Shown here piece after piece: positions 35,818 through 60,800 of a stretch of DNA of 64,000 bases. Source of the DNA: Mesodorylaimus sp. YZB2_4. Taxonomy: Eukaryota; Nematoda; Enoplea; Dorylaimida; Dorylaimidae. Numbering within the stretch: position 1 is the stretch's first letter; each line of letters begins with the position of its first letter. The DNA lies in NCBI GenBank assembly GCA_030248295.1, contig JASANH010000220.1:825998-889997 (forward strand), given 5' to 3'. The notes under the pieces are model-generated. The model searched no databases, had not been told where the DNA came from, and worked only from the letters and a program-made list of their open reading frames with translations. The position numbers and the translations under genes are program-made.

Positions 35818-38800
35818 TCACGTCGTCGTGATATAAAAGCTTTGAATCCTCTTTTGCCCACTGGCGGAAACAGTTTGACTTTGACCACCTTTCTTGAAAA
35901 TCGTAGTTGGTTCGTCTTCGTCAGGACTGGCAGACCAGTTTGAACCTTCGCAACAAGCGAATGCGTAACGCCGTTTTGGAGCCTTGCTTCGATTGAACAA
36001 TCCGTAGAAGCCGCATAGTGTTTCATTATCGTGGCAAAAAATAGTGTCGGTTTGATTGACGCGAACAAACCTGGTAACGCGTTTTTTCACCGCTTTCTGC
36101 AAAGAGAACTTCAGTTTTTATCTTGGAATTGAATTCTCTGCTTTGCGTTTTGTGGTTTTGCGATGGTTTTCATGCCTACTTGAGTTCTGATCAAGGGATA
36201 CTCGATGTACAGTAAATTAAGTGCTGTTGCGGAGATCCGCCATATCAATTGTTTGGGCGTTAGATGCAGCACTTTGATACTCATGTAGCTGTTTCTCTAT
36301 CCCTGGGAGATCATAACCGTCTTCTAGACTAACCCTTCCAAACTAGCACGAATCCCAAACTACACTAGCTCAACTGTCCGCGTCACTTTCTTGCTTTTCC
36401 AACTGAACTAAAGTTGGTGCTGTTCATATTAACTATACATAAAAATCAGGTCCCAGCCTGAGAATCCTCAATCCCACATGATCTAACCAACAAGTACCGC
36501 ACGTGGTGTCAGGCGCAGAATATATAATATACGCACAGTAGGTGGCCCAGGACAGTACCCTATCAAAGGCCGATACATGCCGGCATAATTAGCAGCCAGG
36601 CACTGGGCGCATACGATGTCAAACGGACTGGACGCGGGCCTGCGATAAATGGCGTCGATTTAGATGTCCACTTGACATCAGCACCAGCTTTTAAGAATCT
36701 CTTGTAAAAAAATGCTGTACAGTATCTGATATTCACTACCATAAATATTTGAGCTTTTATAATTTGCCGGACAAATTATTGCTTCAAATAGGTTAGAGGC
36801 GGGAAAGCTATTTGAAGTGGGAAACTAAAATTTGCAGCGCATTTCGCATTCAAATTTTATCAAGAACTAATTACGCCCAAAATCAGCCGCAACTTGACCG
36901 TTTTCTTTACTCTCTTCTCCATTAAACGTATCACGGCAGGGTAGAGTGTTTATGGGGTGGGCTGCAGTCGCAGCGCAGCCTACAGTAATTGTCCCACACT
37001 ATACGGGGAGGCTATTGGAGCGAAGTGTACTCGTAACCTTCTCACCCTTCCAAAGATTGCTTAGAACAAAAGCAACAGAAGAAATGCGTCCCTTCACCCT
37101 CGAGTGCGCAAAAGCTTTGGTGATGTGGTAAAACATGAACAGAACCCAATGCCCGTCCTGCGTACCTGCCTGTTTTGCATGGCAGGTGTCACATGGCACG
37201 GAAGAAGCATAGTTCCAATTGCCCCTAATCCAAGGTTTATAATTGATAGGCACTACGGCCAGACCTTGCTTTGCGAAGAGACCATAGCGGTTAGCAGCAA
37301 TTCGTGTTCCTACTCAACTCCTGCTTACGAGAGAGATGCATAAATCTGGCGATGCCCGCAAAAGGTCTCGCCAGACGTAGCACATACTTACAACAGGCCT
37401 AACAGACTGCCTGTAAACCATTCTGAGGGCACACTAATCTGGTTTTACACCAGCAGCCTTACCTGGCTCTCATCAGTCACAGAATTGCATGACATTCGAA
37501 ACAAAATATCCTCGCCATCAATTCCTCCCACATAACGAGTTTCCAATTTATCGAATGCATGATTCGGGACTTCGCAATCGATTTGAAACGACTGGCCGTA
37601 TTCTGTCTCTTCATCTTTAGCAACCCGTTGCAACTGGCTGAACTTTTGGGGAGGGATACTTTTGTAAGTAACGCTGTCTTTTCCAGCATTGTTAATGGTC
37701 TCCAACTCTTCGTCACTAATTGCAACATTGTCTTTTCGCTTGAAGCCAGGGTCGTTATAGCAGTCTAAGAGAGAAAAAAGTCAGATTAATGCACAGTACT
37801 GTACAAGGGGTTTAGAATTTTGTGCATGTGTGATAACGTTATTTGCCTCCTCAACCTAAAAAAAAGTCCAGTCATTAAGTGAGTTCTGTTCCAATACCAG
37901 TGCTGAATTAGTGCGATATATTCATTCGGATACGTCAAAACAGCGTAATCGCTCCTTTGAAATCAATATACACATGTCCAGCCTTGAATGCAAACGCCTG
38001 GTTTTCACTCATCGCCTTGTCATTAATTTGTTTTTAGGTGTCCGTGTCCTAACGATAAGATTGGGCGGGACCAGTTTTCTGTTTCTCAACAAAAATTTTC
38101 ACGTCAGGTTGTTTGTAAGTCGCGTAAGTCGCGTATTTGTGTTCTATCGGCAGCAAAAGCTAAGATTTAGGTGGACGAACGGAAAGGTACAATAACTTGC
38201 CGTGAGGTGTAGACCACTAGGGGAAAAAGTTGGCTTACACGACTCATATTTGGCACCATCCAAGGCTAGAGCACAGAATACCACGGTCAATTTGCCCCTG
38301 GATACACTGAAGCTAGAAAGCACGTATCGTGGGCACCCGCTCTTCGGTTGCACGGGGTCGCGTAAGCCAGTTACGGCAACTGCGGCTACACTCTCTGGGC
38401 CCACTGTCCTACAACCGAGTGACTCGTCCAAATGACTATTTGCAGGTTTGCAGCAGCGAAGACGTAACCTGGAAAGGAAAGAGAGAGATCCTTAACCTTA
38501 GGTTTGCAGAGATAAACTATGCTTACATTCTGTAGCTTTTCTCAAACGTTCCTAAAAACCCGTTAATATACTCATCAGTTTTACAATCTGAATTCTCTTC
38601 CGATGTCAAAGCATTATTCTGCAGTCGAAAAGCTTCGCCATATCGACATCGCGGCTCGTCAATGATCTGCGAAAAATCTAGGTCATTGTCACGAGGTACA
38701 TGATACAGTATATCATGTGACTCACTGGTACGGGGTCTCCTGGTCCGCCAATACTACGACAGAAAATACTCAATTCCCAATCAGCCGTCCCATTTGACGA

Positions 38801-38971
38801 GACAAACTTTTTGTACACCAGACCAGATACAGTTTCGGTTGGTAAACATTTCAAATCAAAATTTTGGAATGCCTTATTTGTCAAAACTCCCCCGTCCGCC
38901 TCCGCTCGCTGAATGAATAATACAGTCACAATCAATACAGAGTAGATCAGAGACCACACACACAGCCGCAT
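35818..38971 (-). CDS. Two-domain dermatopontin-like secreted protein
   Basis: Five exons, 38971-38726, 38666-38527, 38468-38239, 37764-37463 and 36096-35818, join in phase for 398 residues. A signal peptide (LIYSVLIVTVLFIQRAEA) is followed by a first domain: FDLKCLPTETVSGL...ELSIFC, then CKTDEYINGF...MLRLRCCK. After a Cys-bearing extension (CRTVGPE, CPRYVLSSFS, VVFCALA, KYES) comes a second: FQIDCEVP...ILFRMSC and IFCHDNETLCGFYG...YAFACC. The alternation F.F.C......I.GI then R.F.F.CC is the dermatopontin pattern. The extension after the first domain recurs in the gene at 45606. It probably belongs to the extracellular matrix or cuticle. Family membership rests on pattern, not on a search. 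Confidence 0.68.
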
Positions 38972-40954
38972 GTCATTTGAGAGGAAGCGTTGAGAATTAC
39001 GTTAAATTCCAGACAAAAATCCAACTTTTCCGGAAACGAAAGTAATCAGACCAAAATAGTCACCAGCTCGGCGTGCGTAATCAACTTGTTCATGGCGGCC
39101 TCATATTCTCACGGCGGGTTCGGCAAAAGACACGTTTGCGCTTTCAGACGGCAGCTACTCACCTTGTATGGCGAGGAGCAAGATGACGTGTTGCCTGAAG
39201 GCGACTCACAAATTTCAAAAGGACTTACACTTATTGATACGCGGAGGCATAAATAGTAGATTCAGAAAGAGATGAACTTTAAAAGGCTGGGACGAGAAAG
39301 CCAGCAAACTCGATATTTGGGCAAAGTAGAGACGGAAAAAATCCACTCTGCGTGATGATGAAGGAATATGGAAATGCCTACACTCTTCATAGAGAACTTG
39401 TTGAGGCGACCTTTTTTGATACAGGTTGGCGTCGAATATGCTCGTGAGCCAACTTCAACAAGGTACAATAGACGGGAACTAGTTCTGTAAAATAGAGGAG
39501 ACTTTTTCACGGCGCGGATACAACATTAATTCACGACGAATGACGTGAAAGTGGTGGCAGTAATCACGCGGACCCGAGTAGGCGGAAGAGGTTGATTTGG
39601 AAGTGATTGACCTGATGCCATGCGATACACAGTTTATGCGGGTCGCTGCAAGGCCAGCGTTAAATTTTTTATTGGCCTTGATCGTTGGAGCATACCAGTT
39701 TAAAGCACTATCATTGAAATTTGTAGGGATATCTTGGCGCATACGTATCCAGTAAAATTCAATTTCATACAGTCGCTTTGAGGATTAGCGACGAGGTTAC
39801 TCTTTACTCGTTGTCTGCCTGGCTGACTCGTAATACCATAAATACCTCCTTCATAAATTATATCGACTGTAGAATTGTAGAAGTACCTCATTTTACCAGT
39901 CGCCATTCAGACCGACCTGTGGGTGTGATCGTACGGCGCTCGTGCTGTTGGCTGAGCTTAGGTTGAGGCTTACTCACTGTATTAAACCTACTCCCTCGCA
40001 TGGGTCGCAGAAATCATTGCCATCAGAAGGTTTTTCACCCTTATCTGGTTGGTTGGCACTGGTGCAATGACCCCCAGCCACTTCACCCCTTGGTAACATT
40101 GGGCCGCTGCAAGGGCTGTTGTAGTAGTAGGCATGGAATATGCATGTACTATGCTCTCCGGCCAATTGGTGCACTGGTTCAGGGAACCGACCCCTCTCTC
40201 TCCTGCCAGGACCATCGCGAAACTGAGAGCGAGATCGAGGTCGAGCCCCCCGATTTGGTTTGCAGGCATCGGTCTGAGTTCCTGGTCTGAACTTGCTCTA
40301 TGAGCACTTTTGTCTCAGGTCCGTCAGAACCCCTTTGACGGCGCGTGCGGCTGCTCCCCAAATTGTGACTCTATACGTGGCCCTTGTGGTGACAGTAAAC
40401 TATAGCACGAGGTGTCTGTGGACTGCGTTGGACTGTTCCTGTGGCTTGAGCCATCCTCTGGTCAGCCCTAGTCTGTCCTAGGGCGAGCCAAGGATTTCAC
40501 TGTGGCATTAAATACGGAGCACGCCTAGAGCGTTACATCGGACCTCGAGGCTGCATTCAGAACTAGGCACACTAGACATGAATGGCAACGCCGTATTTCG
40601 TCTTTCATTAGACTGCAATAGAATCTTTTAAAAATCATGGAAGAAAGAGAAATGAGGAATGAAATCGTAGGCGTATACTGCGATAATACGGATACAGTTG
40701 TCAGCATGATTAGCCTATGCATATGTACAGTTCACATAACTTAATATATGAGTAGATGCTAGTTAAAATAGTTCTAGATCTGGCTTACTTTTTCAGTGAT
40801 CTGATCAGAATAAATTTATGATTTGAAGCAGATCGTCATGAGTGTCACTTAACCAGACATTGTATGCATCTTACGACAGATAACTGGTTTTATTTGTGCA
40901 CCCTTCATGATGCAGGTCATACACTTTGACATCATTGACATCATCTCTGACTCA
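38972..40954. other. Intergenic region with repeat R2 copy 2
   Basis: 40128-40502 (+) is the second copy of R2. Minus-strand frames at 39480-39900 hold INCVSHGIRSITS...HFHVI, faintly like half a dermatopontin domain. I could not build a gene from them. Confidence 0.4.
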
Positions 40955-45605: not shown

Positions 45606-47441
45606 ATGGTTCTTTCTCAGTTTTTGCTCCCACTGCTCTTATCGCAGCTGCCCGCTGTCCACACGGCATGGTTTCCAGAATCAGAAGCTCAAAAACCATT
45701 CGACATTGATTGTCCACTTGGGGAGGCTGTAAATGGGATTACGATACAACATGTTTCGACTGGCCAAGCTGTCACTGGTGTGCAGACATGGTCCGATAGC
45801 CTATGGCGCATATTCTGCAGCCCGTTAGTTAACAAGACTATCGGGGCGGTGCAGCCTCCTCAGTCCCCACCCCGAGTTGCACAGGAATTCTTTTTGGCGC
45901 AAGGAGTCGATATTAGGGATCCAACTAAAAATTGTGCACCTGAAGAGTACATATGCGGCTTGACAGGTGCCTACACGAATAATCAGAGATCGTAAGTGAC
46001 TGTTATAAATTTGCATCAATGTCAGAGCTAGTTTCGTGCACTGTGCTCTAAATCTGAAGACCAGATCCAATAATAAAACTTTGTTTTTAGGTTAAAATAT
46101 AAATGCTGTAAAAATCCAGACTTCAAGCGCAGTGAATCATGCCAGCTGGTTGGTCCTGAGAGGCTCAACAGCTTTAATCCAAATGAGATTAAGAATCCGA
46201 CAATGGGCAAGAAGGGCAAGGGCTGTGCGCCTGACGCAGCTGTGGCCTTCGGATTGAGCAATGATGGAGCACAAGTGTTGTTTTGCGAGTTCAGGGAAAA
46301 TGGAAAGCAATATGAATGTAAGCAGGTGGTGTATGCATTAAGGCACCTCCTGACTACTGCTGACACGGGCCAAGGAACACTTCCCTTGTCAGCCGTAGTT
46401 TAGGGACAGAATTACGACTACTTGGTTATTTTTTAGACTTTTTTGACGGGTGCTATGTTCTTTGCATGTGCAATCTTTAATTTTCTCTTAGCCTGCGAAA
46501 CAGAACAGAAATCACAATCCCAAACCAACCAGCAGAGTACCCAAGGTGGACTGGGTCAAGAGGCCAGCACGACCATATCTTCATTCCAGACCTCATCCCG
46601 ACGGTCTCCAACTTCTGGTGAACATCGACCTTCGACGCAAGGTCCCCGCACACGAAATGAAGGGAATTTTGTGACCAGAAGCAGCTTACAAGTTCAACAG
46701 AGGAGTACACCCCAAAAGTTTACGCGGCATAATTTGTTTGAAAGGGGCACTACAACTAGCCCGTTCTTTGGTCGCCGTGGTGGTGGGAACGATCGGAATA
46801 AGCCCATCGCGTTTGGCTCCTTGGGTCAGCCTAACATACCACAACTGCCTATTCCACCTGGTCCTCGGGGTCCGCCGGGCAAAAGACATGGCACAACACC
46901 GAGCGTCATTCCTAATCTTAACCTTGGACCCGGCTTTGGAGGAATTCCTCAGCCTGAAGGCTTGCCAAATGGGCCATCTATTCCAGCACTACGGCCGTCC
47001 CTGCAAGGCTTAGGTCCATCGTTTCCAGCCGTTGGGCAATCCCTACCAGGTTCAGGCCCTTCTCTCATCAGTCTACCAGCCCCTGGCGGACTGCCGCTAT
47101 CACCATCCATCTCAGGCGGTTTGCCGCTTTCCCCTAATCAGCAGACGGGAGATTCTTGCGTCTGCTTATGCAATCAAAAATGTAGCCTCCACAGCAACCA
47201 GCCGTCATTGTCCCTCGATCACCAAGTGAATACGGCAAGCCTGTTGTCTGGGAGCCAACTTCAAAGTGGTATTCTGAAGCAGACGGAACTTGGTGGCACC
47301 CCCCTTGGCACTGCAAATAGCGCATCGCTGCCGTGGAAAGAAATTACATTCGAAGGAGCCAGTGCCTTTGTTATCGTGAACAGTGATCGATTACAAATAT
47401 GCCCGCCTTCGAAGTGCAGGTGTGACTCCGTGTGTAACTGA
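45606..47441 (+). CDS. Dermatopontin-like protein fused to Pro/Gly-rich and Cys-motif tail
   Basis: Exons 45606-45991, 46091-46317 and 46492-47441 join in phase for 520 residues. After a signal peptide (LPLLLSQLPAVHT) comes a dermatopontin-type domain (KPFDIDCPLGEAVNGI...LWRIFC, then EYICGLTGAY...LKYKCCK). The extension shared with the 35818-38971 gene (CQLVGPE ... VLFCEF ... QYES) follows. A long Gln/Pro/Gly/Ser-rich region with IPPGPRGPPGKRHG, then SCVCLCNQKC and the terminal block FVIVNSDRLQICPPSKCRCDSVC, complete it. The last two are shared with the gene at 43669. The protein is thus a bridge between the two families. It is probably an extracellular matrix component. Confidence 0.72.
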
Positions 47442-48761: not shown

Positions 48762-51700
48762 ATGAGCAGATTAGGGTTGTTTGTCGGTGTACTCTTTTTG
48801 GCTACCATAGTCTTGACTTTAGTTAATTCTCAGGCCTTGTCCCCTGGAAATGCTGGCGTGGACGCGAAGAAGGGAGGCGGATCGAAATCGGGCGAATCGA
48901 ACAGAAAATTCAGGCTATTAAAAGATGGTGAAGAATCACGACCGGGCGAAAATTTCGAATATTCCGTTGATGACGATTCGGCCATCTCATCGTTCGGATT
49001 TCAGTTGGTCAAGACGGCCAGCGGAACCGACGATCTGGTAGTCGTATTCGTCAGCAGGAAACTGTTTAACGGCTTGAGACAAGTAAGCCCTTGCATGGCC
49101 ACCTCTGTGAGGCTATTTATTGTGTACACTGAACCTGTTTGAAAACCCAAACCGTGAGGTAACAAGCTAGGATTTACGGCACTCACCACTCTGTACATTT
49201 TGTCAGGTGGCCGTGAAACGCCGTCACAGAAGATTCATTCGGTTGCGTGAACTGAAATCATTTAAATTGGGCGATAACGAAAAGATCGCTGGAATCCGCA
49301 GCTATGTCGAAAACGGCGAGCGATTTGTTTCGTTTGAAACTATCGATCAATCAAACGCTGAGGAAGACCAGAGTCAAGAAAAGCAAGAATCGCAAACAAT
49401 TAGCAGTTCGGACAGTGCTATCAAGCTCTTCTCAAGCTCCGGCGACTTGGTCATCCAGAACATTCAAATTTCATTCAGGTAAGAGCTTGCCTTTCGAAGC
49501 AGTTATCTTCCTAGGGGAGCGCAGTCAAAGGCTCACGTAGTGGAAAGGGACTACAAAGAGTTCGTGCAATCCTGAGCGCACATGTTTTTCGATTGACCAT
49601 CAGGAGCTGTATGAGCTAACCGGAAAACTTTCTATACGCCTTTTTTCTTGATTCCGGGCACTTGACCCTATCCATCATCCCATGCTCTGGGGCCCACTCA
49701 TTCTCTGTCCAAACATCTGCGCACGCAAGGGATCAAAAGAGAAATAGTTGGAGACGCATTTTCTACTCCGCCCCATTTTGGTATTTCGAAAAAAATAACC
49801 AGTCGTGAACAGTGAAATTTGACTGCGACGGAAAAGACTGCGGAGGCGTGTGTCCACACCTCTGTTCAAACCAGGTGACGCTGCCTTGAAGATTATCCTG
49901 AACAACATAATCAGTCACTGGGTGAACACATAAATCATGAGACAACTAAAGTAGAGTTATGGCCAGAGCTGCTTTGTCCACTCTCGTGCGGAGTGCTCAT
50001 GCACTGGGAGGTTTTTTGGACGGACATTTTTCCCCAAAACAGGGTCTAGCTCACAACATATTTTTAAATCGATATGGCACACTGTACTAACGTTATGACC
50101 TTTGACAAAAACAAAGCCACTTGTGAAAATCTAACTGCGGACGAGCAGAAGAGACGGCCTTTTTTCTCACAGAAAATTCCAGGTCTTTCTGCACGCGGTG
50201 AAACTTAGCGAGTGTGGTAGAAGAGAAAAGGCGTGGCATGGTCGATATCTGCACCGAATACTGTAGTTCGCAGCCAGCAAACTCACATTTTCCCCTTGAC
50301 AGGTCTTTTACGTTTACCTGTGTTTTCAAAATGAACTGTTGACATTCGTCAAACCTAATATTTGATGGCCTGGTTCAAGGCGCATACGTAGGATGTTAGC
50401 GTAGGTGTAACAGTAGTCGGGAACAATGACGTTATCTGACGCATATGCTATCCGGGTTCGTAATTGGCTGTGATCATTGACATGGGGTGCCGATCGCGCA
50501 CAGTACACTCAGTGCGGGCAGGAGTGTGCCAATGACGATAATCCGGTTTCGCTGGTTTGCGCTGAGGTGCGTTGCATCAGCACTACGGGTGAAGATGATG
50601 AATCGTATCCTGCTGGGTGTGATTGACCGTTTTGTATTGTCCAACCCTGTGGGCTGATGGTGCGAAGGGGGCACGCGATACCAGGCGTTGGCCAATCTCA
50701 TGTAAGACCAAGCTGACCAGAAAAAGCGAGAATCTCGGAAGTGTGCCCTTATAATTGCCTTTCAATTGCAGCATCACTATCAAGATCACGGTTACGTATA
50801 CAAAGTACAAGTCTCTTCAAGTGGCGCGTTTTCAAATTTCATCAGAGAGCCAGGATAGCAGCTCAGCTGGTGGAGGAAATGGAAGCGGAGAAAGCGGTAA
50901 CAACAGTGGAGAACAAGTCGACCGCGATAGCTTGCCCGATTTGCCCGAGGGTCAAGAATCGAGGCCCAGTCAACCATTCAAATACAGTTGTTCGGACAAT
51001 TCGGTCATCACCAGAATCCGAATCCGCACCATTTTCATCCGTCAACGAATTCAAATTTTGTTCATTTTCGAAAGTGCCAAAATTTCGATTACCGAAATTC
51101 AGGTAACCTTGCTTCGGCTCGCTGAAATGCGTGACGTGATGCTGAAACACGCGTTTTATAGATCGCTGTTCGTCGTCGTCGTTCCATTTTCTATCGCGTT
51201 AGCAAATTGCACGACTTCCATTTAAAAGAAAATGAAGAGATTAGCGGTATCCAAGTTAGCTACGCGAGTGATGGAGAGCAATTGATATCATTCGAAACCA
51301 CCGAAAAGTCAAACGCTGAAGAGGACAAATCGGTTCCGGAGCAGGAAGAGCAACAGACTATTGACGTGAACCAGAGTGTCACTAAGGAGTTCCAAGCCCA
51401 GAACGGGTTGAGTATCAAAAGGCTCTCCATCATCTTAATTCGGTAAGTACAGTATGTTTTATGCTTCTCTGCTTTGACTTTTATTTCATTTTTGTTTCAG
51501 GAAGCGGATTGTGGTCAAAGTGAAAATTGTCAAGGTGATTCACGTCCGCGTTGCTCGATTTAAAATCTCGAACACTACGAATGATGTTAATTTTGACGAG
51601 GCTGGCGACAATGGCGAAGAGAATTCATCGCCTTCAGAGTCGGCCCCTGGCGAAGAACCAGACCGTGATAGCCTGCCCGAATTGCAAGATGATCAAGAAT

Positions 51701-54700
51701 CGCAACCAAGCGAGCCGTTCCAATACAGCGCCTCTTCTGGCTCAATCATCATCGAAGTCCGTATTCGCACGATCTTCGTTCGTCGCCGGCGACAGCTTTT
51801 GTTCATTTTCAAAAGCAAGAAAATTTCAGTTGAACGCCAAGTAAGTCCTGATATCTGTGTTCTAAAATGGCACTCCCAGATCTGATTTATTTTTTCTACT
51901 GTAGTTGGCTGTTCGCAAACGCCGCACCAAATTCTACTCAGTTAGCGAATTGCCCGAATTCCAACCTGGCCCAAACGAAGTGCTGAGCGGCGTGGCAGTC
52001 AACTACGACGAGAATGGTCAGCAGCTGATTTCCTACGAATTCAGTGAACAGTCGAACGCCGAAGAAGACAGCAGCGCACCGGAGGAACAGAAGGAGGTGC
52101 CAATTGACGATGACCAATCTAGCACGCAGGTGTTCTCGAGCAGCGATGGAAAGTCGATCAAGGTCATTAACATTATCGTTATCAGGTATGAATTTGGTAA
52201 CCACCATCTTTGAACCACATCTGAGCTGAGAGCTTTTTTGTAGGAGAAAGAGAGTCGTCAGAGTTAAGCTTGTGAGAGTGAAATACGTCAGGATCGCTCG
52301 TTTCCAAGTATCAAATACGACCAATGATGATGACGGGCAGATTGAAGATGCCAATGAAGAGGGAGCAAACGATGCTGATTCAAGTAGCGGGTGGACACTT
52401 GAAAGCTCAACCGCTGGTCCTGGTGGTTCGTCTGAAGCACCTGATGGTTCATCTCCTGCCCCTGGTGGCTCTTCTCCTGCACCTGGCGGAAGTTCCAGCC
52501 AACCACAATTACCAGAATTGCCCGAGGGCCAAGAATCTCAAGTCGGCGAACCATTCTCATTCAGTGCCCCCGATGATTCTACTATCAGCAAGATCCGTAT
52601 CAGATCAATATTCGTCAACAGACGTCTGGTGCTACTGTTCATCTTGCACACAACAAAAATATCAGTTCAGGAGCAGGTAAATCAGACTAATTTATTTTCT
52701 TTGATCTGGCAATATCGACACACCTTTTTTAGAAGTTTATTCGCCGCCGTCGCACTAGTTTCCATCGGCTGGAAGAACTCGATAATTTAAGTCCCGGCGG
52801 ACAAGAAAAGTTGACTGGTATCTCAGTGATTTACGATAGCGAAGGCAATCAGTTGTTCTCGTACGAATTCAGCGACCACTCAAATGCTGAGGAAGACAAT
52901 AGCCAGTCTGAAGAGACACAGGTGCAGGAATTCGACACTTCGTCAAGCAGCGTTGCTGAGTTCCAAAGTCAAAGTCAAAGTCAAAGTGTTAAGACAATTG
53001 TGATCAAAATTATCAGGTAGGCTGCCACAGATGAACAGCAGCATGGGAGCTAGGGAACTATTCAGTCGATTCAGTTACTGGTTTGTTGCTTATATTTCAG
53101 GAAAAGGATTGTTATCAGATCCGTGTTCGCTAAATACATCTTTGTATCACGCACCCGATTTGAGAACTCATCCAACGAGAGCGAAGATGATTCTGGTGAT
53201 GAGGCTGCTGCTCTTGCTGCTTCTGAAGCTCCGGGCTCATCGACTGAAGCGCCAAGCAGTGAAGGCTCGTCGGAAGCCCCCAGCGAATCTTCATCAACCA
53301 CATCAAATGAAGGTAGTTCTTCCGCTGGTCCCACCGGTGGTTCGTCCGAGGCACCTTCCGAAGGTTCGTCTTCCGCTCCTACTGAGTCGTCTGAAGCACC
53401 GAGTAGTTCGTCTGAGGCGCCTGGCAGCTCGTCTGAGGCCCCTGGTGGGTCGTCTGAGGCCCCTGGTGGTTCATCTCCTGCCCCTGGTGGCTCGTCTGAG
53501 GCACCTGGCGGGTCGTCTGCTGCACCTGATAGTCAATATGACGGTCTTCCTGCACTACAAGAAGGAGAAGAATCTAAGCCCGGAGAGGACTTTAAATTCG
53601 AATGTCAAGAAGGCTATTCTATCATCGAAATAGACATCCGCGTTGTCAGTATATCAATTACTCAGACTGATGTCCTGTTCAAATTCAAGACAAAGAGGAC
53701 AATTTCGCAGAGACAAGTAAGATATCCTCCAAAATCATAATATGCGACCATTATTAAAAATGCTTCTTTTAGTTGGCCACCAAGTCCCGTCGGACACATT
53801 TCTACCGCTTCAGCGAATCATCGAGCATCAAGGTCGAAAAGAATGAACAGATTACAGCCGTGTACAGTCACGTCGAGAATGGTGAACGCTACATCGCTTA
53901 CGAAATCTCTGAAGAATCGAACACAGAAGAAAACAGCAGTTCCGAAACTTCAGAGACTATCACCATCTCGTCGAGCGACCGCAGCGAACATCAGATCAGG
54001 GGACGCTCCTCGAGCTTAATTATCAAGTCTATTACCATTATCATCGAGTAAGCTGGAGTTAACATCTGACAGCTGGCTAGTCATTGAAAACCAGATATTA
54101 CAAGGCTGGTAACGGTCATAACATACAGGGATGGTGTTGAGTAGAAAAGTTATTGTATATCACCAATCTTTTCAGGCGAAGCATCTACATTATCAAGATC
54201 ACCTACACTGAATTCAGGTACACAGCGATTGCTCGATTCACAGAGTCAAGCTCAGGCGAAATCAGTGACTCTGGCGAGGCTTCTGGAGCTGGCTCTGCTT
54301 CTGAATCATCAGGTGCGACATCAGAAGCTCCTAGCACTCAAGCAAGTGAAGCATCCAGCCAAGCCGCAAGTGAAGCTACAAGCGAATCCAGCACTCAGCC
54401 ATCTGTCATTGAGGCGTCCAGCGAAGCAGCCAGCACCCAAGAGTCTGTCAGTGAGGCATTGAGTGAAGCGGCCAGCGAGGCAACCAGCGAGGAGGCTAGC
54501 ACCCAAGCGTCTGTAAGTGAGGCGTCCAGTGAAGTGACCAGTGAAGCAACCAGTGAAGCGACCAGCGAAGAGCCTAGCACCCAAGCGTCTGTCAGTGAGG
54601 CGTCTAGTGAAGCGGCCAGTGCAGACACAAGTGAAGCGACCAGTGCAGCGACCAGTGAAGCAACTACTGAAGCGGCCAGCACCCAAGCGTCTGTCAGTGA

Positions 54701-57498
54701 GGCATCCAGTGAAGCGGCCAGTGCAGCAACCAGTGAAGCGACCAGTGCAGCAACCAGTGCAGCAACCAGTGAAGCGACCAGTGCAGCAACCAGTGCAGCG
54801 ACCAATGAAGCGACCAGTGAAGCAACTACTGAAGCGGCCAGCACCCAAGCGTCTGTTAGTGAGGCATCCAGTGAAGCCCCCAGCACCGAACCACCTGCTT
54901 CGACTTCCGCTTCATCTAGCGAGGAATCGAGCCAAAATAGTGGCGTGGTTCAATCGTCTGTTTTAAGTTCATTGTCGTCGAGTTCTTCGAATTCATCTTC
55001 CAGCTCTTCTTCAGTTTCGTCTTCGAGTAAATCGTCTAATTCTTCATCGAGATCCTCGTCGATTTCATCATCAAGTTCATCGTCTAATTCTTCATCCAGT
55101 TCGTCATCTGTCATCGAATTGCAAGAAGACGAACAATCGATCGCTGGCAGCTCATTCAACTTCAATTGCGGCCAAGGTCAAACTATAGTGAAGATCGGTT
55201 TGGTGCACAAATTTACAGATTCAGGAGAGAACGATTTTGTATTCCGCTTCAAGTGCAAATCGTCTTCCAGATTCGTAAGTTGTCTAGCACGCTTCGTTCT
55301 TGCATGTTTAGATGAAAATTTTGACATACTTCCAGAGTTCTTCTTGGACAATTCGACTGACCAGTTTTGTCAGCGCCTCACAGACGTCTTCGGTCAAATG
55401 CCACAGCAACGAAGTTGTGGTCGGCGTGAAAAGCAAGTACTCAAACAAGGACCGTCTATTCGCTTTTGAATGCGCCCAGCTACCATGCGAAGCAGGAAGC
55501 AACAACACCAGTGTTAGCAGCAGCTCCGGCAGTGGTGCCAGCAGCAAAGGGGGAGCAAGTGAGTCTTGCGTTTTTTTTTGTTGTTTCTCTGCACCGCGAG
55601 TACGGTGGTCCTTTATTTCTAGTCGCACGCCTGCGTCGTCAAGCATTGTCATCTTCATCATCCTCTTTCCAATCGTCATCTTCGTCTTCTTCTTCCTTCC
55701 AGTCATCATCTTCATCTTCCTCTGGCAGTCAGTCGTCGTCTAGCTCGAGTTCAAGCAGCTCAAGCTCTTCTGTCACAGTCAGCGCCAGCTCCACTGTGGA
55801 ATCGTCGGTGTCCGCGTCCTTCAGCTCGTCTTACCTGCAGTCGTTCTATTTCTCGTCTAGCTCCTCGTAAGTGCAAGTTGATGATGGTAGTTGATGCAAG
55901 TTGATGATCATTAGTAACTTTGAATACGTTTCAGGGTATCCGTCTCCTATACGATCACCGTTGAATACTCCTCGACATTTGCTGTGTCATGCAACTCAAA
56001 GTCGAAGTCCTCTCAGTCACAGTCAAGTAAGTCACCAGTCATACGTTCTCTTTGTATAACAGCATGTGTTTTATAAACTAACATGAGTTTTATTTGCTTA
56101 CTTACAGGTAACTCATTCAGTGTGGGCGACTTGGCGTCTGTGGGCGTTCTCGGTGGTATCGGCTTAGGAAGATCGTCGTCAAGCAAATCATCATCATCAT
56201 CTTCATCATCATCATCATCCTCTTCTTCGTCCTCTTCTTCATCTTCTTCAACTTCGTCTTCTTCAAGCGGTCATCACAGTTCTAGCGGCCATCATAGCGC
56301 CAGCGGTCGTCACAGCGCCAGCGGCCATCACAGCGCCAGCGGTCGTCATAGTGCTAGCGGTCGTCACAGTGCCAGCGGCCATCACAGCGCCAGTGGCCAT
56401 CACAGCGCCAGCGGTCGTCACAGCGCCAGTGGCCATCACAGCGCCAGCGGTCGTCACAGTGCCAGCGGTCATCACAGCGCCAGTGGCCATCACAGCGCTA
56501 GCGGTCGTCACAGTGCCAGCGGTCATCATAGTGGTCACCATAGTGCCAGTGGTCGGCATAGCGGTCATCACAGCGCTAGTGGTCATCATAGTGGCCACTT
56601 CAGTGGCAGCGGACATCATCATGCCAGCGGAAGCGGACTTCATCATGCCAGCGGAAGCGGACTTCATCATTCCAGTGGAAGCGGACATCATCATGTCAGT
56701 GGAAGCGGACTCCATCACTCCAGTGGAAGCGGACTCCATCACGCCAGTGGTAGCGGACATCACGGTAGTGGTCACCATTTAAGTACTCCTCATCCAACTC
56801 ATCTTACCACCCCACACCATGGCAGTGGCTCGCATCCTACTCATCACACCACCCCGCACCATGGCACTGGGGGATCGCATCCTACTCATCATACCACCCC
56901 GCACCATGGCACTGGGGGCTCGCATCCTCCTCATCACACCACCCCGCACCATGGCACTGCGGGATCGCATCCTACTCATCCTCATCCGACTCGTCCACCC
57001 CACCCAAGCCACCCCACCCATCCAACCCATCCCCATCCAAGCCACCCCCATCCAACCCATGCTCCTGGCCACTCGATGCCTCCTAAAGGTAAACCAACAC
57101 CCGCTGGAGGAAAAGGTGGCCTAGGTGGGAAAGGGGGCAAAGCTGAAGCAGGTGGCAAGGGTGGAATCCAAGCTCAAGGAAGTGCCACGAGAAAGAAGGG
57201 TGGCGGGCTTGGAAACGCAGTGTCAATGCCTGGCGTCTTGGGGGCTGGTGGTTCGTTCGGCATGGGAGGTGGCGCTGCTGGCAGTTCAAGTAGCTCTTCT
57301 TCGTCCTCCTCTTTCTCATCCTCCTCTAACACCCAAACGGAGATCCAATCAGGAGGTGACGCTTTTGGATTTGGGGAGCTCGGTCAAATCATAACTGGAC
57401 GTAAGAAGCGTGACCTACCAGAACCAGCTGACGGCTCTTCTTCGTCGTTCATCGACACCTTGGTCGTGCGCAAGAAACGAAATGCCGCCCAAATGTGA
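48762..57498 (+). CDS. Giant modular secreted protein: six dermatopontin-derived modules, Ser/Ala linkers, His-rich tail
   Basis: Fifteen exons join in phase for 2160 residues: 48762-49082, 49207-49478, 50772-51102, 51162-51442, 51501-51840, 51905-52185, 52244-52676, 52733-53016, 53101-53716, 53773-54047, 54176-55274, 55336-55558, 55623-55866, 55935-56026, 56108-57498. A signal peptide (LFVGVLFLATIVLTLVNS) opens it. Exons 1-12 form six A+B pairs. A ends with LPELQEGQES, an F.Y/F strand, then IRIRTIF and LLFIFK. B starts with a basic stretch (VRKRRTKFY), then NEVLSGV..NYDENGQQLISYEF and SNAEED. This matches dermatopontin halves (I.GI.S....DR.F.F.C) with the Cys lost, except in module 6 and one Cys in modules 2 and 5. 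Exons 13-15 add poly-Ser, (G/R)HHSAS repeats, THHTTPHHG repeats, a Gly-rich part and basic sites GRKKRD and VRKKRN. It is presumably matrix, cuticle or adhesive. Confidence 0.72.
54310..54890 (+). repeat. Ser/Ala/Thr/Glu coding minisatellite
   Basis: Repeats of about 12-15 bases (AGTGAAGCGACCAGTGCAGC and variants) nest inside larger units starting with ACCCAAGCGTCTGTCAGTGA (five copies). They encode SEATSAATSEA and STQASVSEASSEA. The unit length is a multiple of three, so the antisense and shifted frames are open too. Confidence 0.8.
56265..56960 (+). repeat. His-rich coding minisatellites
   Basis: An 18-base unit (AGCGGCCATCACAGCGCC and variants, H or R alternating) gives SGHHSA/SGRHSA about fifteen times at 56270-56530. 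A different unit giving SGSGLHH follows to 56780. Then units of about 57-60 bases encoding PTHHTTPHHGTGGSH run to 56960. About one residue in four is His in the first block. Confidence 0.8.
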
Positions 57499-57870: not shown

Positions 57871-60800
57871 CTACTGGCCCTTCTTTGCTCCTCCATTAAT
57901 CACGTACTGATGAGCGACATAAGCAGCGATGGCGACTACTTGCGCGAAGCAGACCAAGCTCAAGAAGGTAGAAACACCAAGAAAAGTCGCCTTTTTAAGA
58001 CAGATCTGCCGCTTCTTGCTGACGGCATCGTACGTAATGAATTGCTCCATGTAGCCTGCAAAATAAGACATAAAGAGCACAACAGGCTAAATGAGGCAAA
58101 TTACTTGCCTCGCCTTGCATCTCGATTGACAAAATGCACGCGCTCCATCATGTTACTGACATTTGAGCGGGGTTCAGGATTGGGTACTGATTGAGTCAGT
58201 TTGTCGATGACGGTGAAGACGATGCTACTGGATTCAGTTTTTCTTGAATTTTGGTCAGATAAAGAACGTCGACGACGTTTACCGTAAGAAGCTACTTGCT
58301 TTCCATCAATGGGGCATTGAGTCTGGGAGCAAAAAGCCGTGTTGGGATAAAGTTGAAACCATCAAGAAGTCACTCACAGGATGACATCCTTTTTCGCACA
58401 TGTCAATGGCGCAGCTGATTTTGACCGCATTGCTGCCATCGAAGCGGAATGCTGTGAACGGTAGAACAAATCCGTCCGCACTTTCCAACACTGCAGTGTG
58501 CACAATTTTGCCACGAGCGGCTGCTGATGGGCATCCGTCGTCTAGCAGAAGGAGGGGAGCGGGTTCAGGAGGTGGGCCAAAGTATCGAGAAGCGTTGCAT
58601 TGGCGCACGAATAACCCCATGCCAGTTCGATCTGTAAGAGCTCAGTGCTATCTTATGCAAGAAAATACGCAAGGAAAAGCTTACTAAATCCGGGATAATA
58701 ACGGAAGTTCAGATTCAGTTGTTCTCCTAGCATGGCCGTCTGTATGTGATTGCCATCCGCACTCGGCCTGCTTAGTTCCAGGTTGAGCGGAGACGGTATA
58801 ACCACCACACCATCTGGATACAGTCCGGGTGTGTCCTTTGGATTACTGAAAATTTTCGATTCCAAGCAACATGATTGACGAGATCTGATATTGATTCTTA
58901 CTTGACAGCCATACCCGGCCCAGTGGCTGTGACCAGATTGGAAAAACTGTCAGTGAAATCGCAAGTAATGTTGAAGAATCGATCTCCCTCGGTCACCAAG
59001 CCAGGAATGTCCATGTTGTTGGCAGTGACTACAATGATGACAGTGTACTTGCTACTACCCTAAAAATTAAGACTCTATTACTTAGACTGGCTTTTACCAG
59101 CAAACAATACAATGGTACTTACGATTTCAGTCACGCCGCATGGACTCTCAGGGTTTTGAACATCGGGGAACTTCAATGGTAAGACCACTTCCGCCCTGTT
59201 CTCCACATTCGCACGACAAGTTCCAAACTTGTTTTTAGCGAATACAAAGCCTGTGAACGGCTGCTCAGCCAGCATTCGAACCCGCATATCCGAGTAATCG
59301 CAGATAGGTTGCATTTCCATGTTGGGTACAGTTGGATTCGCCCTGCTGAGTTTCGGGCCGTCCGTGGCATTGAGATGGTCCACATCAGGCTCGGCCATAA
59401 GTCTTGATGGACGGTTGCCAATCACTGAAAAGAACAGGACAGTCAAACTGCAGCGTGCCATCGATGTCAAAGCAGCTTACGTGGTTCGGGCACTATCGCC
59501 ACATTGGCATGACACATATTTTCGTAATACACTGCCGAAACATCGACGCCAGACACGTCTTCGAATGATGCATCCAATCTGGTAGCGTTATTGAGTTCGC
59601 ATAAACTGGTCTTTGTCACGTAGTTGACTGAACGGCATCGATTCGATGGGTCCAACAGACATAAGCTAAGGCATTCGTCAGGACTGATACCCGAAAATGC
59701 CACAATCAGATTATCGGTCGGAATGCGCATATTGAAGATTACATCGAAGGCTACGCAATTATCGACTCCGCATGCCAAACGTGCCCCTTCGATACAGGCT
59801 CGTTCATAATGGTCGTACTCGGAGAAGTTTCCGAAGCGCCCTGATCGGTGAGAGATAAATGACAAGCCGCAGTACTGGTCCTCTGATCTATATTCAACTG
59901 AGTTACAAGTAAAGTTTTCAGCTTCATTGCATCTGAAATGAGAAGAAATATATACTCTTTCCCGCCACAGCAACAGCATGTGACATTATATAAAACTAGG
60001 CAAGCCCTTGATTGCTGGCTGCACTTTGTCAAAAAATGTGATGCAAAGGACTCAGAGATCTACAGTCTCACCGTTTCAAACATTCAGGCAAGCCCAAACC
60101 AGTGTAGGCAACGAGGTCATGTTCCGGCTTCCTCGTCCCATTGTAACGAAAAAAGGTTGGGGTTGAGCGATCGGGGCAAGCGTTGAATGGGATTCCTGTA
60201 AGCATAGGTCTCTTGTATTGTAGAGATTCGGCTGCACAGAAGTTCAGCTGGGTTTATCATCCCGGACTGGTGTTTCAACCACAAAGCAAGCCGAAAGATC
60301 CTAGTAATTCTATGGCAGACTATGCTCTAACCTGGGTCCTTAAAAAAAATGCAGCCATCATGATCGAGCACATCAGTGCAGATTTTGGCGAGACCAGAAA
60401 TGACTAATTCTAAGCAAAAGCAAACTGGCATTGTTTGAGTCAAAGCGTTGAAATGCTAGCAGCAATATCAGGTTGGGGCAATCATACAAGCATCAACATA
60501 GGCTGGTGGAAGCGAGAGTGACTATTTTCAAGTCCCTCTCAAATACTGGACCTCACACCAAGGATGGAGCAAGGCATAATCGGAAAGCGGAACCCATACC
60601 CTGGGATTTCAGTCCCGGTTCTAGAGGATCTTATGGGAGGAGGCTCCATTAACATACCCAGGCACTCCGTGGGGCCATGGTAGGAGAGCCAGGTTTATTT
60701 CGTTTTCGCTGGCCTGACTTTGACTTGGTGAATTTCAGCAAGGTGATGGGGCTATTTAATCTCTTACCTCCATCCCTCTTCCTGATGGCGCATAAATTGT

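Follow-up and report, generated by a model that had tools for sequence, protein, structure and literature searches.

Gene model and module layout

The stretch analysed here, referred to as the window, comprises 64,000 nucleotides from the nematode Mesodorylaimus sp. YZB2_4 (contig JASANH010000220.1) and lies within the contig denoted C30 of the genome assembly that we searched (145 Mb, 1067 contigs). Judged from its sequence, the region from 48762 to 57498 on the plus strand is probably one gene for one secreted giant protein of six modules, the last of which matches the dermatopontin domain (DERM), whereas the first five are most likely its relatives and almost lack cysteines. Coordinates are positions in the whole window unless a contig (C84, C26 or C96) is named. 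Splicing the 15 exons by script gave a single frame of 2160 codons followed by TGA, with the ATG at 48762 and the stop ending at 57498; all 14 introns have GT-AG borders, and the intron phases alternate 0,2,0,2 over introns 1-11. The claim of the initial annotation that 15 exons join in phase into a 2160-residue frame was thereby borne out. The N terminus, MSRLGLFVGVLFLATIVLTLVNSQA, resembles a signal peptide by eye. Serine makes up 23.9% of the protein and histidine 17% of the last exon, in agreement with the Ser-rich and His-rich additions described earlier. Only 8 Cys occur among the 2160 residues, one each in the A halves of modules 2 and 5 (residues 271 and 1016) and six from residue 1476 onward, so that modules 1-5, with 2 Cys, are indeed nearly Cys-depleted and module 6 is Cys-bearing.

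The repeat unit had been described as a pair of exon parts, A and B. Six such pairs are present, but the limits of the unit need to be widened, as each module adds a third conserved piece, C, which opens the exon after B (e.g., RKRIVVKVKIVKVIHVRVARFKIS). In module 6 the C piece probably stands in exon 14, after a Ser-rich insert and, like the other C pieces, with a phase-2 intron before it. A hidden Markov model (HMM) of the B exons assigned 120-141 bits to five of them and 62.9 bits to the remaining one, the sixth; it was built from these same six exons, and the scores are no independent test. The features of the gene are as follows.

48762..48830, plus strand: residues 1-23, probably a signal peptide (judged by eye on the spliced translation)
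48762..49082, plus strand: exon 1, with the signal peptide, a Gly/Lys/Ser stretch and A of module 1 (48912-49082; splice, HMM)
49207..49478, plus strand: exon 2, B of module 1 with the SNAEED motif (B HMM 131.8 bits)
50772..51102, plus strand: exon 3, C of module 1 (50772-50853), linker and A of module 2 (50929-51102; splice, HMM)
51162..51442, plus strand: exon 4, B of module 2 (B HMM 135.8 bits)
51501..51840, plus strand: exon 5, C of module 2, acidic linker and A of module 3 (51670-51840; splice, HMM)
51905..52185, plus strand: exon 6, B of module 3 (B HMM 140.9 bits)
52244..52676, plus strand: exon 7, C of module 3, Ser/Pro/Gly linker and A of module 4 (52506-52676; splice, HMM)
52733..53016, plus strand: exon 8, B of module 4 (B HMM 126.5 bits)
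53101..53716, plus strand: exon 9, C of module 4, Ser/Glu/Ala/Pro linker and A of module 5 (53543-53716; splice, HMM)
53773..54047, plus strand: exon 10, B of module 5 (joined module 5 gives DERM at 18.3 bits, sub-threshold)
54176..55274, plus strand: exon 11, C of module 5, long Ser/Ala/Glu/Thr linker and A of module 6 (55107-55274, with FNFNC and FRFKC; splice, Pfam, HMM)
55336..55558, plus strand: exon 12, B core of module 6 (joined with its A half, Pfam DERM at 8e-13, 49.3 bits, profile positions 5-96 of 152)
55623..55866, plus strand: exon 13, Ser-rich insert, 62% Ser (splice)
55935..56026, plus strand: exon 14, preceded by a phase-2 intron and coding for what is probably the C piece of module 6 (VSVSYTITVEYSSTFAVSC; C HMM 17.3 bits, a weak score from a model that includes this piece)
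56108..57498, plus strand: exon 15, Ser run, His-rich repeats (GHHSASGRHSASG; SHPTHHTTPHHGTGG), Gly/Lys stretch and the C terminus, whose motif resembles that of the C84 gene (splice)

A second giant gene and the relation to dermatopontin

Protein searches of the assembly with three queries (a module of the window gene, module 6 and a Cys-bearing paralogue) revealed related exons on C84 (28-67 kb), C26 (397-399 kb), C96 (175-176 kb) and the minus strand of the window (35.8-36.1 kb). The family thus occupies four contigs and includes at least two six-module genes. The second of these lies on the minus strand of C84, where six B exons between 66.8 and 59.0 kb follow the same plan as the window gene; all six are preceded by AG and followed by GT, with phases identical to those in the window gene. 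Modules 1-5 of the C84 giant hold three Cys in total in their A+B parts, and the A half of its module 6 keeps FDC...FNC. Ser-rich spacers separate several of the modules, followed by a tail containing Ser, Gly and His and by an LPDPEDG motif near the end, and the C terminus of the window protein carries LPEPADG flanked by two RKKR sites. The two C-terminal motifs, RKKRDLPEPADGSSSSFI and RSARSLPDPEDGFSSSLV, were first chosen as a pair by eye and then shuffled; they align with a score of 53, which 0 of 2000 shuffles reached (highest 51), and both proteins have a basic C terminus. A scripted splice path through the C84 giant comprises 2596 codons with a final stop only, although its A3-B3 junction keeps a probable intron, and a candidate signal-peptide exon lies at C84:71038. 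This paralogue of the same plan provides the best evidence that the window gene is a single unit. Chance open frames as the source of the gene model were rejected on the basis of the intron phases, the same-plan paralogue and low ratios of nonsynonymous (dN) to synonymous (dS) substitution. We likewise rejected the idea that the Ser-rich region joins genes unrelated to each other, in view of the C piece in exon 14 and the similar C-terminal motif in the C84 gene.

Two further stretches accompany the C84 giant. C84:42438-42887 on the minus strand (L023) is a partial, near-identical copy of its sixth B exon (58961-59248), located about 16 kb downstream of the original and lacking the exon start. 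About 3.5 kb upstream of its first module exon, C84:70356-71131 on the minus strand (L025) holds a signal-peptide-like exon with CQPGQWISGIG...QRWTPRLRC, dermatopontin-like by eye, which belongs either to a gene of its own or to the N terminus of the giant.

For the comparison with dermatopontin we used the Pfam family DERM (PF14704; curated cut-off 28.3 bits, profile length 152) and a sequence of human dermatopontin, to which a Pfam check assigned 144.7 bits. Module 6, with A6 and B6 joined over the intron, passes the cut-off at 8e-13 and 49.3 bits, and its Cys positions match those of the profile; by this match, module 6 is a DERM domain. The B6 exon by itself scored 28.1 bits in the genome search and 28.7 bits with its in-frame neighbours, and module 5 remained below the cut-off with a weak 18.3 bits. 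Most B exons outside the two giants have four cysteines of the C-x6-CG...CC-x2-SN type, and two joined Cys-bearing paralogue modules pass the cut-off as well, the one on C96 (36.5 bits) and the first one on C26 (29.4 bits). Slightly or clearly below it fell the joined modules of C84 (32 kb B exon; 28.1 bits) and of the window minus strand (23.6 bits) and the sixth module of the C84 giant (15.9 bits).

Modules 1-5 are most likely relatives of dermatopontin by descent that now lie outside the profile and the cysteine pattern of the family, a conclusion for which a transitive chain through the Cys-bearing paralogues constitutes the main evidence. Aligned with hhalign, ten Cys-poor modules matched eight Cys-bearing ones, module 6 excluded, with a probability of 99.8 over 148 columns, and of 99.9 when the Cys columns were removed. 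The nine Cys-bearing modules including module 6 in turn scored 83.1 against human dermatopontin (maximum of the shuffles 2.8; shuffle controls, where given, consisted of 100 shuffled dermatopontins per set), all 19 modules together 70.1 (shuffles at most 1.4), and a set with the C96 module added 88.8. The Cys-bearing hhalign set includes one B exon without an adjoining A (G4), which was excluded from all trees.

Several results weigh against this descent. Neither modules 1-4 in the Pfam scan nor a hand-made consensus of modules 2-4 matched DERM, and the profile of the ten Cys-poor modules scored 4.8 against human dermatopontin, inside the shuffle range (maximum 8.1). Among the paralogues, DERM was absent by Pfam in the second C26 module and in the C84 36.6 kb module, both of them Cys-bearing. 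Without module 6, the eight remaining Cys-bearing modules reached 19.7 with no shuffle control, and since the score dropped from 83.1, module 6 supplies much of the dermatopontin signal of the Cys-bearing profile. When A+B+C sets without module 6 were compared with whole dermatopontin, the scores were 5.6 for 14 rows (a set that leaves out W6, D2, G3, G4, M1 and P1) and 25.4 for 4 Cys-bearing rows. A profile comparison of piece C with the third repeat of dermatopontin gave no detectable match either, and piece C should be that repeat by its position only. The dermatopontin relation put forward in the initial annotation for all six modules therefore stands directly for module 6 (49.3 bits) and, by way of the Cys-bearing relatives (99.8; tree support 99/97, see below), is well supported for modules 1-5, whereas the direct profile match fails for modules 1-4; in the same manner, profile-profile alignment with dermatopontin recovered the Cys-bearing sets (83.1) and not the Cys-poor set (4.8, within shuffles).

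Other searches were negative. The one Cys-poor C84 module scanned with Pfam gave no DERM match, comparison of the A, B and C profiles with each other gave no significant signal of an internal repeat (best 4.4), module 6 as a query against PDB sequences retrieved no relative (the best match, a zinc finger, had E = 1), and human dermatopontin as a direct genome query, run with no positive control, found no match.

Two module exons of the Cys-bearing paralogue within the window were located.

35818..36117, minus strand: B exon of this paralogue, which is separate from the giant gene (A and B exons joined: DERM at 23.6 bits, under the cut-off)
37445..37780, minus strand: A exon of the same paralogue, FQIDCEV...LFRMSC (found by HMM)

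Upstream of them, at 38678-39001, is a signal-peptide-like exon with a dermatopontin-like stretch, FDLKC...ADWELSIFC. On C96, a compact relative at 174.3-176.5 kb (L027:6253-8452) starts with a signal peptide by eye, has N-terminal DRQW and CKPGEYIVGAL motifs followed by one Cys-bearing A+B+C module, whose A+B part is the one with 36.5 bits, and ends in a hydrophobic C terminus that appears to be of the glycosylphosphatidylinositol (GPI) anchor type; its exon joins are partly modelled. Pfam recognised no DERM in the N-terminal exons of these two genes or of the C84 gene at 71 kb, despite motifs that resemble dermatopontin by eye.

History and correlates of the probable cysteine loss

Three trees of the modules were calculated: an 18-row tree of modules from this genome, a 20-row maximum-likelihood tree of 19 genome modules, including that on C96, plus human dermatopontin, and a 19-row tree without dermatopontin, from which the 7 of 174 columns with at least two Cys had been removed. 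In the 20-row tree a branch with support 99/97 separates all ten Cys-poor modules from the rows on its far side, dermatopontin among them, and in the 19-row tree the Cys-poor branch kept a support of 96/96 without the Cys columns. Because all ten form one group, the cysteines were probably lost a single time, after which the Cys-poor modules would have multiplied. The suggestion that the loss is a derived state looks borne out in this way, and the opposite polarity, with the Cys-poor form as ancestral, is rejected by the tree, with one caveat that counts against our interpretation: the branch of human dermatopontin is very long (4.08), which makes it unsure as an outgroup. In the 19-row tree the C96 and window-minus rows are likewise long branches, and they join.

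Modules 1-5 of the C84 giant formed one group in all three trees (97/95 in the 18-row, 99/99 in the 20-row and 96/97 in the 19-row tree), and modules 2-4 of the window gene grouped in two of the three (18-row and 19-row). These groupings suggest that each giant probably amplified its own middle modules. In the B exon, alignment columns 92, 99, 119 and 120 have Cys in 7 or 8 of the 9 Cys-bearing modules and in 0 of the 10 Cys-poor ones; in the A half, column 26 has it in 7 of 8 vs 2 of 10 modules. Comparisons of B exons by the Nei-Gojobori method yielded dN 0.21, dS 2.49 and dN/dS 0.08 for modules 3 and 5 of the C84 giant, and dN 0.48, dS 1.61 and dN/dS 0.30 for modules 2 and 3 of the window gene. 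Ratios of 0.08 and 0.30 suggest that the Cys-poor modules are functional and under constraint, although the dS values (2.5 and 1.6) are near saturation, which weakens the argument.

Composition was compared between the two groups as means of related sequences, with no statistical test. In the C piece (10 Cys-poor vs 6 Cys-bearing sequences), Lys plus Arg amounted to 25.0% vs 13.5% and Ile plus Val to 28.3% vs 9.7%. The B core is followed in both groups by SN and mostly acidic residues, in the form SNAEED in 4 of the 5 modules 1-5 of the window.

These features could be accommodated by a mechanism in which each Cys-poor module would form a beta-rich unit stabilised by packing and charge in place of disulphides, the charge partners being the strongly basic Val/Ile-rich strands of the C piece and the acidic loop after the B core. 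Flexible Ser-rich spacers, probably modified, would link the modules to each other, the Cys-bearing module 6 would anchor or cross-link the C-terminal end of the chain, and the His-rich tail would bind metal. Disulphides of the C. elegans cuticle are removed at moults (PMC11304992), and the absence of disulphides from the modules would free most of the chain from such making and breaking; by analogy, the Cys-free modules may stand largely outside the disulphide cycle of the moult, and the His tail may bind metal. The complete proposal, i.e., that the family lost its Cys once, that packing and charge substituted for them through C-piece Val/Ile-Lys/Arg strands facing the acidic loop, and that the five-module arrays in two genes form a matrix polymer independent of disulphide exchange and anchored by the Cys-bearing module and the His-rich tail, is nevertheless doubtful. 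Two observations tell against it and slightly lowered a confidence that was already low. The A+B part gained no basicity (Lys plus Arg 13.6% in Cys-poor vs 14.5% in Cys-bearing modules) and is more acidic (Asp plus Glu 16.9% vs 12.3%). Furthermore, the joined path of the C84 giant contains 22 Cys, many of them in spacers and tail; this giant as a whole is thus not Cys-free, which speaks against a general escape from disulphides.

Proposed matrix role, competing explanations and known relatives

We consider it likely that the locus is one gene for a secreted 2160-residue protein with six DERM-descended modules that serves as a structural matrix component. A place in the extracellular matrix of the nematode (cuticle, stoma lining, eggshell or gland secretion) is what we infer from the sequence; a role in the apical matrix would fit the signal peptide, the matrix-domain family, the Ser-rich spacers, the His-rich tail and the basic C-terminal sites.

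The most serious competitor accepts the gene and differs on its function: the protein could act in immunity or adhesion, in the surface coat or as a gland secretion, and not as a load-bearing part of the matrix. Some invertebrate dermatopontin relatives are lectin-like, the family has duplicated and diverged, the spacers are mucin-like, and the C96 relative apparently ends in a hydrophobic GPI-like tail, yet the low-complexity architecture common to the two giants suits a structural role, and we regard the surface-coat alternative as possible without being probable. The basic RxxR-like runs at the A/B junctions raise the question whether they are proprotein-convertase sites at which a polyprotein is cut into module-sized peptides. 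Sites of the form R-x-[KR]-R occur at the B start of modules 1-4, inside A and at the start of the C piece of module 3, ahead of the Ser-rich region and twice at the C terminus. The full motif is missing, however, at the B start of modules 5 and 6, and the basic run there ([KR][KR]R.T[KR]F type) is kept in the Cys-bearing relatives too, a conservation that points to a structural role of the run and leaves processing into peptides unlikely.

Alternatively, the locus could be split into at least two genes, one for a dermatopontin-like module array and another, at 55.6-57.5 kb, for a secreted protein rich in Ser and His. In favour of a split, exons 13 and 15 have low complexity, and the match to the C84 tail is a short motif whose score barely exceeds the best of the shuffles. 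But the intron phases continue through the region, a probable C piece sits within its Ser-rich part in exon 14 behind a phase-2 intron, and the same order recurs at the C84 locus, including the Ser/Gly/His tail and the LPDPEDG near the end, so that we judge a division of the locus to be quite improbable. Very improbable, in our view, is a convergent origin in which modules 1-5 would be a different beta-rich module fused to the one true DERM module. It would explain why modules 1-4 lack a DERM match, why the Cys-poor profile aligns with dermatopontin no better than shuffles do and why the Cys-bearing profile reaches only 19.7 without module 6. It is difficult to reconcile with the alignment of both groups over some 148 columns (which persists without the Cys columns), with two Cys-bearing paralogue modules that exceed the cut-off on their own, with the fact that both groups have the SN-plus-acidic motif and the same intron phases at the A/B and B/C borders, and with the weak DERM score of module 5 by itself.

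Accepting the reading as a DERM-descended matrix protein, the giant shares with dermatopontin the family match of module 6 and of the two joined paralogue modules and differs from it in several respects: dermatopontin is a small single domain, whereas the giant has six modules in 2160 residues, modules 1-5 are almost without Cys, the third repeat is unrecognisable, and Ser-rich and His-rich regions have been added. The known molluscan shell-matrix dermatopontins are single-domain and Cys-bearing, and the window giant is set apart from them by its arrays and its Cys loss. They offer a parallel as an invertebrate dermatopontin family that was duplicated and co-opted for matrix use (PMC4897951). 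In the MACPF-WSC perforin-like proteins of Chromera, DERM is likewise part of a multi-domain extracellular protein; there it is a C-terminal domain, and a Cys-free array is not mentioned in the portion of that source consulted (PMC4501334). The low-complexity cuticle proteins of nematodes, epicuticlins and DPY-6, are secreted apical-matrix proteins too, and epicuticlins are described as intrinsically disordered; the source for the epicuticlins (PMC11304992) does not use the term dermatopontin anywhere in its main text. His-rich proteins bind zinc in annelid jaws, and in comparison with the jaw proteins of Nereis the His-rich tail hints at metal binding (PMC13120676), a resemblance at the level of composition.

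The literature on dermatopontin that we searched deals mainly with vertebrates and molluscs, and among the matches listed no title concerned a nematode dermatopontin or a Cys-free array, which is weak evidence given the partial coverage. The view that a tandem array of Cys-depleted dermatopontin modules is undescribed agrees with the titles listed. The window protein is not the only one of its kind, as C84 carries a second such gene. Giant arrays in nematodes would extend the dermatopontin family to the best-studied cuticle builders. With the Cys loss traced to one branch and the Cys-bearing type still in the genome, the family constitutes a natural experiment on domain stability, and the giant may hint at a matrix material that assembles by itself and whose modules lack disulphides.

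In the remainder of the analysis, scans of the 64-kb window for Rfam families and tRNAs gave no matches, a pectate lyase search gave no match either and was uninformative, and a profile search for the N-terminal domain of nematode cuticle collagens gave 133 matches in the genome, which mark it as that of a nematode. Two neighbours of the giant gene were noted. A 334-codon frame at 46437-47441 on the plus strand, with no Pfam match, is rich in Pro, Gly and Ser and has a GPRGPPGK stretch and a Cys-rich end. On the other side, at 58306-59985 on the minus strand, gene pieces with a PAN domain (43.0 bits) and ZP-C (21.4 bits, under its cut-off of 24.6) adjoin the giant; in nematodes, ZP proteins are established components of apical matrices.

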